Assembly: GCA_947176765.1 (NCBI GenBank)
Contig: CAMWRX010000006.1
Coordinates: forward strand, 1 to 64,000
From: an uncultured bacterium
Lineage (GTDB): Bacteria > Bacillota > Clostridia > Oscillospirales > Oscillospiraceae
DNA: 64,000 bases
Direction of reading: 5' to 3'
Shown: positions 4,493 through 11,114 of the stretch, piece by piece
Numbering within the stretch: the first letter of the stretch is position 1
Layout: the number at the start of each line of letters is the position of its first letter
Notes under the pieces: generated by a model
What the model saw: the letters and a program-made list of their open reading frames with translations, nothing else
Databases searched by the model: none
Told to the model about the DNA's origin: nothing
Position numbers and translations under genes: made by a program

Positions 4493-4899
4493 CTACAGTC
4501 CCCGGCCCTTCACCCGCAGGCGGTTCAGCGCCCGGGCCAGCGTGGACTGGGCCAGCTGGTACTCCTGGATGCTCTTCTTCTGCAAAATGGCCTCACGGGC
4601 CTCGTCAGCTCTCCGGCGGGCACGGGCCTCGTCGATCTCCTCGGGCCGCTCGGCGGAGTCCACCAGGACGAGAACCTCGTTGGCCTCCACCTTCACCATG
4701 CCGGGGGACACCGCCGCCAGCTGAACCGCCTGTCCCGGCGGCTGCCAGCGGATCATCCCCGGCACAATGGCGGCCATCATGGAGCTGTGGTGGGCCAGGA
4801 TGCCCCGCTCCCCGTCATTGGCGGGGATGGTCAGGCTGACACAGGGCCCCTCGTACAGCGTCTTGTCGGCGGCCAGGATATGCACCTCAAAGGTATCCA

Positions 4900-4900
<1 letters not shown>
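4493..4900 (-). CDS. atpC: F1Fo ATP synthase subunit epsilon
   Basis: 135 aa. The start codon overlaps the atpD stop as TAATG (one shared base), so translation is coupled. The N-terminal beta-sandwich (FEVHILAADKTLYEG..., then the NDGERGILAHHSSMMAAI signature) is followed by a two-helix C-terminal domain (EIDEARARRRADEAREAI). This subunit sits on the central stalk and can inhibit ATP hydrolysis through its C-terminal helices. Length and domains are normal. It is the last canonical gene of the operon. Confidence 0.95.
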
Positions 4901-7211
<2,311 letters not shown>

Positions 7212-7212
7212 G

Positions 7213-8973
7213 TCAGTCCTCCCGTGCTCCGCCGCCCTGGAACCGTTTCAGATAGTCCCGGGCCAGGTTCAAAATCTGCGCCCGGTCGTCCTCGGACAGC
7301 CGCCCGGTTTGGTCGATGCGGGCGCATAGATCCGGGGCCTCCTCTTCAAAAGCGGCCAGCAGTCCGGCGCGGAAGCCGTCCATTTTCGCCAGCGGCACGT
7401 CCTGCATCACGTGATCCATGGCGGCCACCAACACGATGACCTGCTGATGCTGGCTCAGGGGATTGTACTGGGGCTGGCGCAGCAGGCGCATGAGCCCCTG
7501 GCCATAGGCCAACTGGCGCTTGGTGGCGTCATCCAGGTCGCTGGAGAACTGGGTGAACACCTCCATCTCCCGATACTGGGCCAGCTCCAGCCGGATGGGT
7601 CCGGCGGCGGACTTCATGGCCTTTGTCTGGGCGTCGCCGCCCACGCGGGACACGGACAATCCCACGTTGACGGCGGGCCGCTGGCCGGAGAAGAACAGCT
7701 CGCTTTCCAGGAAGATCTGGCCGTCGGTGATGGAGATGATGTTGGTGGGGATATAGGCGGACACGTCTCCCGCCTGGGTCTCCACGATGGGCAGGGCGGT
7801 CATGCTGCCGCCCCCCAGCTCGTCGCTGAGGTGGGCGGAGCGCTCCAGCAGCCGGGAGTGGAGGTAGAACACGTCGCCGGGGAAGGCCTCGCGGCCCGGG
7901 GAGCGCTCCAGCAGCAGGGACAGCGCCCGGTAGGCGATGGCGTGCTTGGAGAGGTCGTCGTACACGATCAGCACGTCCCGGCCCTGGTACATGAAATACT
8001 CGCCCAGGGCGCACCCGGCGTAGGGGGCGATATACTGCAAAGCGGCGGAGGCGCCGGCGGGGGCGGTGACGATGGTGGTGTACTCCATGGCGCCCCGGCG
8101 GGCCAGATTTTCCGCCAGTTGGGCCACCGAGCTGGTTTTCTGCCCAATGGCCACGTAGATGCACACCACGTCCTTGCCCTTTTGGTTGAGGATGGTGTCC
8201 AGGGCGATGGCGGTCTTGCCAGTCTGGCGGTCGCCGATGATGAGCTCACGCTGGCCCCGGCCGATGGGGAACATGGAGTCGATGGCAAGCAAACCCGTCT
8301 CCATGGGGGTGTTCACCGGCTGGCGGTCCAGGATGCCGGGCGCGGGGGTCTCAATGGGGCGGTAGCCCTCCGGCTCGATGGAGCCTTTGCCGTCCACAGG
8401 CAGGCCCAGGGCGTCCACTACCCGGCCCAGATAGTCCCGGCCCACGGGCATACCGGCGGTTTTTAAGGTGCGGCGAACCATGCTGCCCGCGCTGATCTCC
8501 TCTCCGTCGCCGAAGAGGATGCAGCTCAGCCCGTCGGGGCGCAGATCCTGCACCATGCCCTTTACACCGGAGGAGAACACCAGAATCTCCCCGTACTGGG
8601 CGTGGGCCAGGCCGTTCACGGTGGCGATGTCGCCGTCCACGGTGAGCACCTCGCCGATCTCCTCCGGGGCGGGGGCGGGCGCCCACTCCTTCACCGCCTG
8701 ACGGATCAGGGGAACGATGTCGTTTTCTCCGGGCTGGAGTTGGCGCAGGTAGTCCTGGAACTGCCGCGCCCGGCCGTCCAGAGTCCAGTCGTACACATCG
8801 GAGCCCACCTGGAGGCGGAAGCCGTCCTGAAGGGTCTCGTCCAACTCCCAGCGGAGGGGAACCTTCCGCTTGTAGGTGCGGGTGAGGAACTGATCGAAAC
8901 GCTGGAGCTGTGCCTCGGTTGGCTGGGTGGCGCTGCGCAGCTGGGCGGTCAGGCGGCTTCTAGCGGCCCTCAT
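7213..8973 (-). CDS. atpA: Fusion of ATP synthase delta C-terminal domain with subunit alpha
   Basis: 586 aa against about 505 for normal alpha. Residues about 7-80 align with the C-terminal domain of delta (AtpH): SATQPTEAQLQRFDQFL, KRKVPLRWELDETL, then GFRLQVGSDVYDWTLDG match the delta pattern of an SEAQL helix, a KRKV strand, a D-L/G turn and a VxD-G motif. From about residue 83 the alpha N-terminus begins (NDIVPLIRQAV) and is complete: Walker A GDRQTGKT at 247-254, and SVSRVGGDAQTK with the arginine finger. The six-helix N-terminal domain of delta is absent and no separate atpH lies in the operon. The start ATG lies inside atpF (14-bp overlap) behind a GGAGGCGGGG site, so there is no room for a separate delta. 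Alpha function is certain; the delta assignment comes from motif comparison. Confidence 0.9.
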   Translation of the reverse strand: MRAARSRLTAQLRSATQPTEAQLQRFDQFLTRTYKRKVPLRWELDETLQDGFRLQVGSDVYDWTLDGRARQFQDYLRQLQPGENDIVPLIRQAVKEWAPAPAPEEIGEVLTVDGDIATVNGLAHAQYGEILVFSSGVKGMVQDLRPDGLSCILFGDGEEISAGSMVRRTLKTAGMPVGRDYLGRVVDALGLPVDGKGSIEPEGYRPIETPAPGILDRQPVNTPMETGLLAIDSMFPIGRGQRELIIGDRQTGKTAIALDTILNQKGKDVVCIYVAIGQKTSSVAQLAENLARRGAMEYTTIVTAPAGASAALQYIAPYAGCALGEYFMYQGRDVLIVYDDLSKHAIAYRALSLLLERSPGREAFPGDVFYLHSRLLERSAHLSDELGGGSMTALPIVETQAGDVSAYIPTNIISITDGQIFLESELFFSGQRPAVNVGLSVSRVGGDAQTKAMKSAAGPIRLELAQYREMEVFTQFSSDLDDATKRQLAYGQGLMRLLRQPQYNPLSQHQQVIVLVAAMDHVMQDVPLAKMDGFRAGLLAAFEEEAPDLCARIDQTGRLSEDDRAQILNLARDYLKRFQGGGARED

Positions 8974-9451
8974 GCGCCCCGCCTCCCTCCGTCAGCTCCA
9001 GGAACTGGTCGAACGCGTCAGCTCCGGGTTGGGCGGCCAGCTTCTTCGCCGCCTGGGCGGCCAGCTCCCGCATCTCCTTCTGGGACTCCCGGATGGCCCG
9101 CACCTTGCTCTGCTCCGCCTCGGCATGGGCCTTGGCGACGATGTAGCGGGCCTGCTCCTCCGCCTGCTCCACCTGCTCCTGGGCGGCCTGGGCGGCGGCC
9201 TGCTGGGCCTGAGCCCGCTCCTGGCGGATCTCCTCGTCCGCCCGTTCCAGCTTGGCCTGGCAGTCGGCACGGAGCTGCTCCGCCTGGGCCAGCTTGTCCG
9301 CGGCCTGTTGGTCCAGCTCCCGGTAGTGGGCCTCACGCTGTTCCATAAATTTCTTCACCGGCTTGAACAGGAGGAAATAGAGTCCCCCCGTCAGGATGGC
9401 CAGGTTCATCCAATGCAGCAGGATCAGCTGCCAATCGATATTCAGAGGCAT
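8960..9451 (-). CDS. atpF: F1Fo ATP synthase subunit b
   Basis: 163 aa peripheral-stalk subunit. One N-terminal membrane helix (WQLILLHWMNLAILTGGLYF) is followed by a long Ala/Glu/Gln-rich right-handed coiled coil. It ends in a short acidic, Gly-rich tail where delta normally binds. It is of standard length and carries no added delta domain, unlike the b-delta fusions of mycobacteria. It lies 19 bp after atpE and overlaps the alpha gene by 14 bp. Confidence 0.93.
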   Translation of the reverse strand: MPLNIDWQLILLHWMNLAILTGGLYFLLFKPVKKFMEQREAHYRELDQQAADKLAQAEQLRADCQAKLERADEEIRQERAQAQQAAAQAAQEQVEQAEEQARYIVAKAHAEAEQSKVRAIRESQKEMRELAAQAAKKLAAQPGADAFDQFLELTEGGGAHEGR

Positions 9452-9470
9452 AGCATTGTCCTCCCAAACG

Positions 9471-9827
9471 TTACAGTACGAAGATGATGAGGATGACCAC
9501 CAGCAATGCGTAGATGATGGCCGTCTCGATGAACACCAGACCCAGCATCATCGTGGTGCGCACCTTGCCTTCCGCTTCGGGCTGGCGGGCAATGCTCTCG
9601 GCGGACTTGGCGGTAGCCATGCCCATGCCCACCGCACCGCCGGCGGCGGCAATGCCCACGGCGATGCCCGCGCCGATGGCCTTGAGGCCGAGGGTATTGT
9701 CCTCCTGGGTCTGGGCGGCGGGCTCACCGGCCTCGGGGGCCTCGGCGGCGAAGGCGGGGGCGGCCAGGGCCAGGGTGAGCAGCATGACCCCGGCCAGGGC
9801 GATGATTTTTTTCAGCAGCTTATTCAT
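9471..9827 (-). CDS. atpE: F1Fo ATP synthase subunit c with N-terminal signal peptide
   Basis: 118 aa, longer than the usual 75-90. Residues 1-27 form a typical signal peptide (KKIIA, hydrophobic core, APAFA) and residues 28-46 an acidic spacer. The two-helix hairpin with the RQPE loop starts at about 47. The ion-binding carboxylate is Glu101 (FIETAIIY). Compared with sodium-binding c rings (Ilyobacter type), the Thr and Tyr after the Glu are kept, but the helix-1 Gln is Met68 and the preceding Pro is Gly, so a proton ring seems more likely. It lies between atpB and atpF with a GGAGG site. Ion specificity is inference. Confidence 0.93.
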   Translation of the reverse strand: MNKLLKKIIALAGVMLLTLALAAPAFAAEAPEAGEPAAQTQEDNTLGLKAIGAGIAVGIAAAGGAVGMGMATAKSAESIARQPEAEGKVRTTMMLGLVFIETAIIYALLVVILIIFVL

Positions 9828-9893
9828 AGATGATGACCTCCAAATATGTTTTTATAGTGTTTCAGGCGTTTTGGCCTGTCAGGTCTTGTGGTG

Positions 9894-9961
9894 CGTGGGA
9901 CGTCATTCGGTTTCGCCGAACGACTGTGGGCGTGGGACGTCATTCGGCTTCGCCGAACGAC
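9894..9961. repeat. Two 31-bp direct repeats with hairpin cores in the 3' end of atpB
   Basis: Units at 9894-9924 and 9931-9961 start CGTGGGACGTCATTCGG and differ at one base. Each holds an inverted repeat TTCGG(T/C)-TTC-GCCGAA. They overlap the atpB stop at 9903 and the last 20 or so codons. A further hairpin (CGGTC...GACCG) follows at about 9969-9984. The class is unknown; they look like REP-type elements. Confidence 0.8.
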
Positions 9962-11114
9962 CGTCCCGGCGGTCTGAAGGACCGCCCGGCTCAGACACCT
10001 CGCCGTAGTACAGCGCCACCAGCATAGTGAGTACGTAGGTCTGAATCAGGGCGTGAAGCAGGGTGAACAACACCCCCACCACCACCGGCAGCACAAAGCT
10101 GAGATTCACGAAATAATAGACCAGCTCCGTCACCAGCAGGCCGCTGAGCAGCGCGCCGAACAGACGGAAGCTCATGGATATGGGCAGGGAGAACTCTTTC
10201 AGGGCCTTCAGTACGCCCTTGGGGCCATGCTCCGCCACGGCGCCGGAGACGATGACCAGATAGGACAGCACGCCCAGGCCAATGGCGGCATTTACGTCGG
10301 ACAGGGGGGCGGGCAGGGTAATGGGGTGCCCGTGGACAGTGATGGCCTGTAAGCCCAGCAGCTCAAACAGCGTTCCCACGAAGATGAACGCTCCGGCGGA
10401 GAAGATATAGGCCCTCAAAAACCGGTTCCGGTGGGGGCTGCTTCCTTTGGCCATGCCGTCGAACAGGCCCACCGCCTCCTCCAGCACCAGTTGGAGCGTT
10501 CCAGGCTGGAACTTGAAGCGGGGAATGGCGAATATCCGAATCAGCGCGGCGGCGATCAGCAGGATGGCCGTTACCAGGAAGGCGGAGATCATTCCCGGGG
10601 TGACCGTTTTCAGGCCGAACAGGCTGATCCGCCCTGAGTCGTGGAGTACCGCGTCCCGCATGGCCTCCTGAACGGTTTCCGATCGGCCGGGTGAGCCCGC
10701 CAGCAGCGCGGCGATGAGCAGCACCGCCACAGCCGTAAGCCAGACCAGCAGACCCTTTTTGTGCTGCCTGATCCCATTCCTTGCCCACACAAAGACGGCC
10801 GCCCCGGCGGAGATGATGCGGGCCCCTATGGACCGATTCTGATGGGGGCTGCTTCCTTTGGCCACGCCGTCGAACAGGCCCACCGCCTCCTCCAGAGCCA
10901 GTTGGAGCTTTCCCGGCCGGAGCTTGAAGCGGGGAATGGCGAAGATTCGGATCAGCGCGGCGGCGATCAGCAGAACGGCCGTCACCAGAAGGGCGAAGAT
11001 TACCCCTGAGTTGACTGTGATCAACTGGCCGGGTGAGCCCGCCAGCAGCGCGGCGATGAACAACAGCGCCACGACCGCCAGCCAGATCGCCAGGCCCTTT
11101 TTGTGTTGCTTCAT
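9903..11114 (-). CDS. atpB: F1Fo ATP synthase subunit a with internally duplicated N-terminus
   Basis: 403 aa against about 230-290 for the family. Residues about 115-375 are a complete subunit a: R317 in SFRLFG is the essential channel arginine and Q358 in LIQTYVLTM is the conserved last-helix glutamine. Residues 1-110 repeat residues 115-245 (QHKKGL, LLAGSPG, IAAALIRIFAIPRFK, LEEAVGLFDG, KGSSPH) but lack about 23 residues of the loop after SPG. At DNA level the repeat extends into the ribosome-binding site: AAGGAATG precedes both copies, and the ancestral ATG of copy 2 has become AGG. The C-terminal tail after YYGEV (about 29 residues, Gly/Arg/Pro-rich) is encoded by 31-bp hairpin repeats. 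It is the first gene of the operon, and no atpI is seen. Confidence 0.93.
   Translation of the reverse strand: MKQHKKGLAIWLAVVALLFIAALLAGSPGQLITVNSGVIFALLVTAVLLIAAALIRIFAIPRFKLRPGKLQLALEEAVGLFDGVAKGSSPHQNRSIGARIISAGAAVFVWARNGIRQHKKGLLVWLTAVAVLLIAALLAGSPGRSETVQEAMRDAVLHDSGRISLFGLKTVTPGMISAFLVTAILLIAAALIRIFAIPRFKFQPGTLQLVLEEAVGLFDGMAKGSSPHRNRFLRAYIFSAGAFIFVGTLFELLGLQAITVHGHPITLPAPLSDVNAAIGLGVLSYLVIVSGAVAEHGPKGVLKALKEFSLPISMSFRLFGALLSGLLVTELVYYFVNLSFVLPVVVGVLFTLLHALIQTYVLTMLVALYYGEVSEPGGPSDRRDGRSAKPNDVPRPQSFGETE

Follow-up and report, generated by a model that had tools for sequence, protein, structure and literature searches.

One F-type ATP synthase with one stalk has been taken as a fixed design rule. 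In canonical enzymes the C-terminal domain of the delta subunit (deltaCTD) holds b, and the delta N-terminal domain (NTD) occupies the threefold axis of F1, thereby permitting only a single stalk. According to Ueno et al. 2025 (PMC12229609), this rule was broken by engineering in Bacillus PS3: a deltaDeltaN-alpha FoF1 (PDB 9jc1 and 9jc2) assembled with one, two, or three b2 stalks and as many as three a subunits. The stalks that were observed bore an a subunit, and the H+/ATP ratio was 5.8 versus 3.0. Particles averaged about two stalks; those with three were rare, a scarcity that the authors put down to loss during preparation, and they called for natural cases to be verified. The same paper names a natural deltaDeltaN-alpha in Acidaminococcus fermentans (UniProt G4Q3K6 and A0A1I2C5T3) and predicts that it forms a multi-stalk enzyme. 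Judged by chain counts in the PDB, the F-ATP synthase of Chloroflexus aurantiacus (PDB 9itj and kin) is apparently a natural multi-stalk F-ATPase as well, since 12 delta chains in 6 entries, 6 gamma chains in 6, 72 b chains in 18, and 36 a chains in 18 correspond to 2 delta, 4 b, and 2 a per gamma. No paper on this enzyme was among the open-access literature matches listed. In mycobacteria, delta is joined to b and keeps its NTD. This b-delta protein (PDB 7jg5 and 8j0s; PMC5709465) is likewise a stator fusion that holds deltaCTD, and that report places delta/b fusions in Gordonia and some Mycobacterium and a so-called alpha-beta chimera in Tenericutes.

The window (the whole 64,000-nucleotide stretch of DNA analyzed here) contains an F-type ATP synthase operon on the minus strand at 4493-11114, in the order a-c-b-[delta-alpha]-gamma-beta-epsilon (Table 1), in which one frame encodes the C-terminal half of delta followed by a complete alpha with its own N-terminal helix. 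The OSCP family PF00213 matches residues 2-75 of this protein (model positions 97-171 of 172; E = 1.6e-8) with 35.2 bits against a cut-off of 22.3, identifying the C-terminal b-binding domain, and TIGR00962 matches residues 84-577 (model positions 5-500 of 503) with 706.7 bits against a curated cut-off of 484.45. An earlier note, made from the sequence alone, had placed deltaCTD at residues ~7-80 and the start of alpha at ~83, both close to the boundaries found here, and the search of the N-terminal part against the OSCP/delta family that it proposed gave the PF00213 match. The amphipathic N-terminal helix kept in the fusion is also borne by free alphas of the same family. The fused deltaCTD has the fold and signature residues of canonical atpH/OSCP, and its profile gave no match when compared with the NTD profile; unlike canonical atpH/OSCP, the window protein lacks the NTD, and the gene fusion gives three deltaCTD copies instead of one. 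An AlphaFold model of the full fusion had a mean pLDDT of 67.9 with a poor nucleotide domain, and its good part was residues ~11-70, with pLDDT of 76-94 per block of ten in two models.

Table 1. Coordinates of the ATP synthase genes in the window and of the parts of the fusion protein
Feature	Position	Strand	Remarks
deltaCTD-alpha fusion	7213..8973	-	586 aa, ATG at 8973
Delta/OSCP C-terminal domain, residues 2-75	8749..8970	-	PF00213 model 97-171; predicted b-a-b-b-b-a fold
Linker (residues ~79-85), then alpha's own N-terminal amphipathic helix, residues 86-96	8686..8718 (helix)	-	
Alpha proper, residues 84-577	7243..8724	-	TIGR00962; P-loop GDRQTGKT present
atpC, epsilon	4493..4900	-	Both domains; start taken as the ATG overlapping the beta stop (inferred)
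atpD, beta	4900..6303	-	Start taken as the ATG overlapping the gamma stop (inferred)
atpG, gamma	6303..7211	-	
atpF, subunit b	8960..9451	-	163 aa; 14-nt overlap with fusion start
atpE, subunit c	9471..9827	-	118 aa; leader-like N-terminal extension
atpB, subunit a	9903..11114	-	403 aa; N-terminal half duplicated

Among the known systems, the engineered PS3 protein is the closest in layout: it has the same order of parts (delta residues 105-178, a short linker, and the alpha N-terminus, with the NTD deleted) and a length of 580 aa versus 586 aa in the window (PMC12229609). The linker and sequence differ, with 19-24% identity over the N-terminal part, and the PS3 fusion is man-made in an enzyme from which the epsilon C-terminal domain was removed, whereas the window epsilon keeps both domains. 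Foldseek with the 586-aa model returned 9jc1_I as the first PDB match (577 columns, E = 5.3e-51) and placed chains J and K third and sixth, albeit with a small margin to the next alpha (1.6e-50), and a profile of 47 natural N-termini also placed 9jc1_I first among PDB sequences, with an alignment running across the join (8.5e-10). VIA-align on the full model returned ordinary alphas, and 9jc1 was not among the best 50 matches listed. Acidaminococcus fermentans, by the description in that paper (PMC12229609), likewise has a natural delta-alpha fusion without the NTD, and because this case had already been named, the window represents a further case of a known fusion type. The earlier note had offered the mycobacterial b-delta protein as the known analogue; the PS3 and A. 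fermentans fusions (PMC12229609) are closer precedents. In mycobacteria delta is joined to b, and the b-delta chain is present in one copy per PDB entry. Chloroflexus aurantiacus provides the best PDB match to the b subunit of the window (2.5e-9), but its delta is a separate 157-aa chain that is not fused to alpha.

The operon leaves no room for atpH, because the fusion start at 8973 lies inside b, whose end is at 8960. In a PF00430 profile search of the genome, no b gene other than atpF was convincing. Two candidates for a second b were rejected: a 315-aa frame on contig C27, which exceeded the PF00430 cut-off only when its pieces were summed and which adjoins a FliI-like ATPase and is probably FliH, and a 606-aa frame on contig C57, which stayed below the cut-off. 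Subunit c has a leader-like N-terminal stretch of ~45 residues ahead of the usual hairpin. In subunit a, the repeats of the duplicated N-terminal half are 82-84% identical in DNA; in L092-L094, the nearest relatives, a measures 274-277 aa and lacks the duplication, and at L158, L152, L153/L066, L068, and L081 the locus's own a gives two matches to the same segment. The same genome also encodes two paired V/A-type ATPase subunits on a single contig and the FliI-like ATPase (named by frame lengths and pairing). It has RnfC as two pieces, each scoring below the family cut-off, one of which lies at the end of a contig. We considered other assignments for the operon and rejected them: for the N-ATPase type, which lacks delta, the fusion scored 614.7 bits with the alternate alpha model TIGR03324, below the cut-off of 750.5, and the gene order is a-c-b-alpha-gamma-beta-epsilon rather than beta-epsilon-...-a-c-b-alpha-gamma; the mycobacterial b-delta type does not fit because b is a separate 163-aa ORF; and a plasmid origin had a single weak match without an annotated gene.

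To the join itself bear 80 named loci, the best 80 of 91 relatives fetched by similarity to fusion residues 1-100, all 80 of which have deltaCTD and alpha in one frame without an NTD. Because they were fetched through these residues, they are evidence that the join is real and not of its frequency. Isolates with the fusion include Flintibacter muris DSM 110149, Colidextribacter sp. OB.20, Acutalibacter sp. 1XD8-36, Anaeromassilibacillus senegalensis An867, and Faecalibacterium sp. An122. The genome of the window is in 122 contigs, which could favor an assembly or sequencing artefact, but the recurrence of the same in-frame join in all of these loci, isolates included, refutes this explanation as nearly as any could be refuted; a frameshift near 8725, which the earlier note had named as a finding that would split the two parts, is likewise not supported. 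Across 47 rows (the window and 46 named loci), P18, R25, Y34, W42, G51, F52, G57-D59, and Y61-W63 of deltaCTD are invariant. The dN/dS of deltaCTD was 0.065-0.340 in 9 of 9 comparisons with relatives, versus 0.051-0.162 for alpha, so the delta part is under purifying selection and is not a relic; the linker and helix, with only 26 codons, gave 0.123-0.626.

We searched the genome (2.67 Mb, 96.1% complete) for another delta. The fusion was the only PF00213 match genome-wide at E <= 0.001, and a profile of 14 NTDs had a best genome match of only E = 0.285, which speaks against a hidden delta elsewhere in a genome of this completeness and bears out the claims of the earlier note that the operon has no atpH, that the six-helix NTD is missing, and that a separate full-length atpH, which would have spoken against its reading, is not to be found. 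The NTD is absent from both the fusion ORF and the operon, so the fusion is not a complete delta; by ORF and genome searches, the locus is of the deltaDeltaN-alpha type, with deltaCTD immediately preceding a complete alpha and with neither an NTD nor a free delta. That an NTD or a stand-in is encoded elsewhere and restores the single-stalk cap seems highly improbable to us: a diverged domain could escape detection in a fragmented genome at this completeness, but neither PF00213 nor the NTD profile found one, and the 80 named loci bear the same fusion without it. Within the same genus, two genomes have a full-length delta frame of 176 aa, one of which (L071, fetched) is a free delta, and three more genomes gave no OSCP match.

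The survey of atp operons in the family that the earlier note had suggested recovered the same join repeatedly. OSCP matches at E <= 0.1 were present in 180 of 300 same-family genomes, in several architectures, although not all matches are listed. We fetched 60 regions, 59 picked for unusual frames plus the free-delta operon of the same genus; alongside these, the 30 best OSCP matches are free full-length deltas. Because the regions were picked for unusual frames, the counts are not frequencies: full-length delta-alpha, 5 (L087-L091); deltaCTD-alpha, 16 plus the window; tandem deltaCTD-deltaCTD-alpha, 1 (L051 in genome G015; 681 aa, i.e., six deltaCTD per F1); b'-deltaCTD-alpha with a separate b, 21 (L032-L050, L065, and L069); b-deltaCTD with a free alpha, 8 (L072-L079); and free mini-deltaCTD frames of 76-102 aa beside alpha, 6 (L080-L085). 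L086 has deltaCTD within a 178-aa frame without alpha, L001 was left out as a copy of the window, and L070, cut by the contig inside b', was relabelled b'-deltaCTD-alpha and stands outside the count of 30 given below. Profile searches found uninterrupted frames of deltaCTD and the start of alpha in 36 of 295 genomes of the order (E <= 1.1e-44), in 25 of 291 of the class (E <= 1e-33), and, for the phylum, in 4 of 348, every one of them from the same class, where 9 other rows had a stop between the parts; these counts include full-length delta-alpha and are lower bounds because triple fusions are mostly missed at these cuts. Another 20 regions from outside the family, picked for their frames, comprised 9 b'-deltaCTD-alpha, 4 full-length delta-alpha, and 7 deltaCTD-alpha. 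In these samples, delta-alpha fusions recur in many families of the class and are not peculiar to this genome. Acidaminococcus fermentans itself belongs to the Negativicutes.

The separate mini-deltaCTD genes of L080-L085 could be taken to favor a post-translational cut of the fusion into a free mini-delta and an ordinary alpha. We regard this as very unlikely, given that the mini-delta operons sit in other parts of the alpha tree, that the linker is short with conserved elements on both sides, and that the NTD would still be missing after such a cut. Two of these loci, L083 and L084, are nearly identical to each other, encode a free mini-deltaCTD in a 76-aa frame, and come from one genome, G098, which consists of a single contig; the alpha match of L084 spans a shorter frame. 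At L111, no c or b gene could be identified in the interval separating a from the deltaCTD-alpha frame (797 aa between stops), which may be an assembly fault or a real loss.

Some loci have a gamma frame that runs into beta without a stop (L072-L079 and L202, 767-814 aa; L056, 649 aa, in a frame that holds Ns). In L072-L079 the gamma-beta linker is ~20-25 aa, and AGGAGG stands just before an in-frame beta start (ATG in seven, TTG in L074). Tethering gamma to beta would link rotor to stator. One possibility is that translation from the inner start supplies free beta and that F1, no longer capped by the delta NTD, tolerates the tether. The gamma-beta fusion was found in 10 of 131 operons without the NTD and in 0 of 9 operons with it, numbers that speak neither for nor against this idea.

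The 30 triple-fusion operons, each with a separate b, have an N-terminal b-like segment with a membrane helix (b') continuous with deltaCTD and alpha, and b-profile matches to these segments ranged from E = 8.6e-29 to 5.9e-7. Because b' is welded to alpha and there are three alphas per F1, there should be three b' per F1 unless the chain is cut. L067 represents an unfused form, with two side-by-side b genes before deltaCTD-alpha. In L190-L198, which are b'-deltaCTD-alpha loci, the epsilon frame is only 86-96 aa in 7 of 9, too short for the C-terminal inhibitory helices; the engineered PS3 enzyme likewise has an epsilon without its C-terminal domain. Of the genetic hints at the reality of multi-stalk enzymes, we consider the triple fusion the strongest. 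Neither b'-delta-alpha fusions nor delta-alpha fusions in Clostridia were reported among the open-access literature matches listed, a scope that mostly excludes subscription journals and preprints; as far as print could be checked, the class-wide recurrence, the repeated loss of the NTD, and the triple fusion are new.

To follow the history of the fusion, we built unrooted alpha-only trees with the delta and b parts cut off, in 93-row and 89-row versions; these are quick searches with many weak inner branches. L080 and L085 (long branches, both free mini-deltaCTD) and near-identical rows were left out, as was the long L155 from the 93-row tree, and 14 and 15 of the 80 named loci are included in the 93-row and 89-row trees, respectively. 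The 93-row tree requires at least 7 changes in NTD presence and at least 4 in fusion, and minimum changes in the 89-row tree are 4 and 3. A single group of all 67 NTD-less rows was rejected (p-AU 0.00037), as was one of all 39 deltaCTD-alpha rows (p-AU 1.9e-5). Because delta is complete in most bacteria, the changes are read as loss of the NTD and not gain, and our reading of the trees is that it was lost more than once. The window's clade has full-length delta-alpha near its base and deltaCTD-alpha above it in the 93-row tree, suggesting that here the loss of the NTD probably came after the fusion. Gene transfer is likely, because two genomes of the same genus carry a full-length delta frame and the alpha of one of them (G066, with the 176-aa frame) falls in another sub-clade of the 93-row tree. 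For the class as a whole, we propose a scenario that could about equally well prove right or wrong, in which Clostridia repeatedly fused delta to alpha and lost the NTD, and one branch added b' and kept a separate b, covalently fixing three b/b' stalks per F1, to give a natural series of enzymes with a two- to threefold ion/ATP ratio.

The reading we favor with reasonable confidence is that the window encodes a natural multi-stalk F-type ATP synthase free of the one-stalk rule, with a stalk number predicted from the fusion and its precedents. Each alpha carries deltaCTD, the module that holds b in canonical enzymes, and no NTD to cap the axis was found; each of the three fused alphas could then dock a b2 dimer and each b2 would bring an a subunit to the c ring, so that the native enzyme would have two or three a-b2 stalks on one rotor. 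The retention and conservation of both the alpha helix and deltaCTD, together with the relatives that join b' covalently to deltaCTD-alpha, speak for this reading; the free full-length delta in the same genus (L071) speaks against it, and because full-length delta-alpha fusions with the NTD exist (L087-L091 and four more), fusion alone need not mean many stalks. The suggestion of the earlier note that a b-binding module on each of three alphas implies a different stator gains strong support from the engineered PS3 enzyme (PMC12229609).

An enzyme with a single stalk, in which one deltaCTD-alpha binds b2, the fusion replaces the NTD anchor, and the other two deltaCTDs are idle by-products, appears unlikely but carries some weight, as the operon has no feature that would increase the supply of b or a, with a single convincing b gene, and the engineered enzyme averaged only about two stalks. 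Against it, nothing distinguishes the three sites from one another without the NTD, two or three of them were used in PS3 (PMC12229609), and b'-deltaCTD-alpha operons would carry three b'. Under the multi-stalk reading, as many as three stalks can probably be accommodated, and more ions would be used per ATP: ions per turn equal the number of c times the number of a (PMC12229609), a relation by which the ion/ATP ratio would be doubled or tripled. A higher ratio would therefore permit ATP synthesis at low ion-motive force, or reverse pumping only to a low force; for an assumed c10 ring and ATP at 50 kJ/mol, we compute ~155, 78, and 52 mV with one, two, and three a subunits, respectively.

Together with its cultured gut relatives (Flintibacter, Colidextribacter, Acutalibacter, Anaeromassilibacillus, and Faecalibacterium An122), the window offers many natural cases in which the multi-stalk prediction is directly testable. 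If the prediction holds, these gut anaerobes would spend two to three times as many ions on each ATP as a one-stalk model gives, which would bear on energy conservation in low-energy fermenters having Rnf and a V/A-type ATPase as well.
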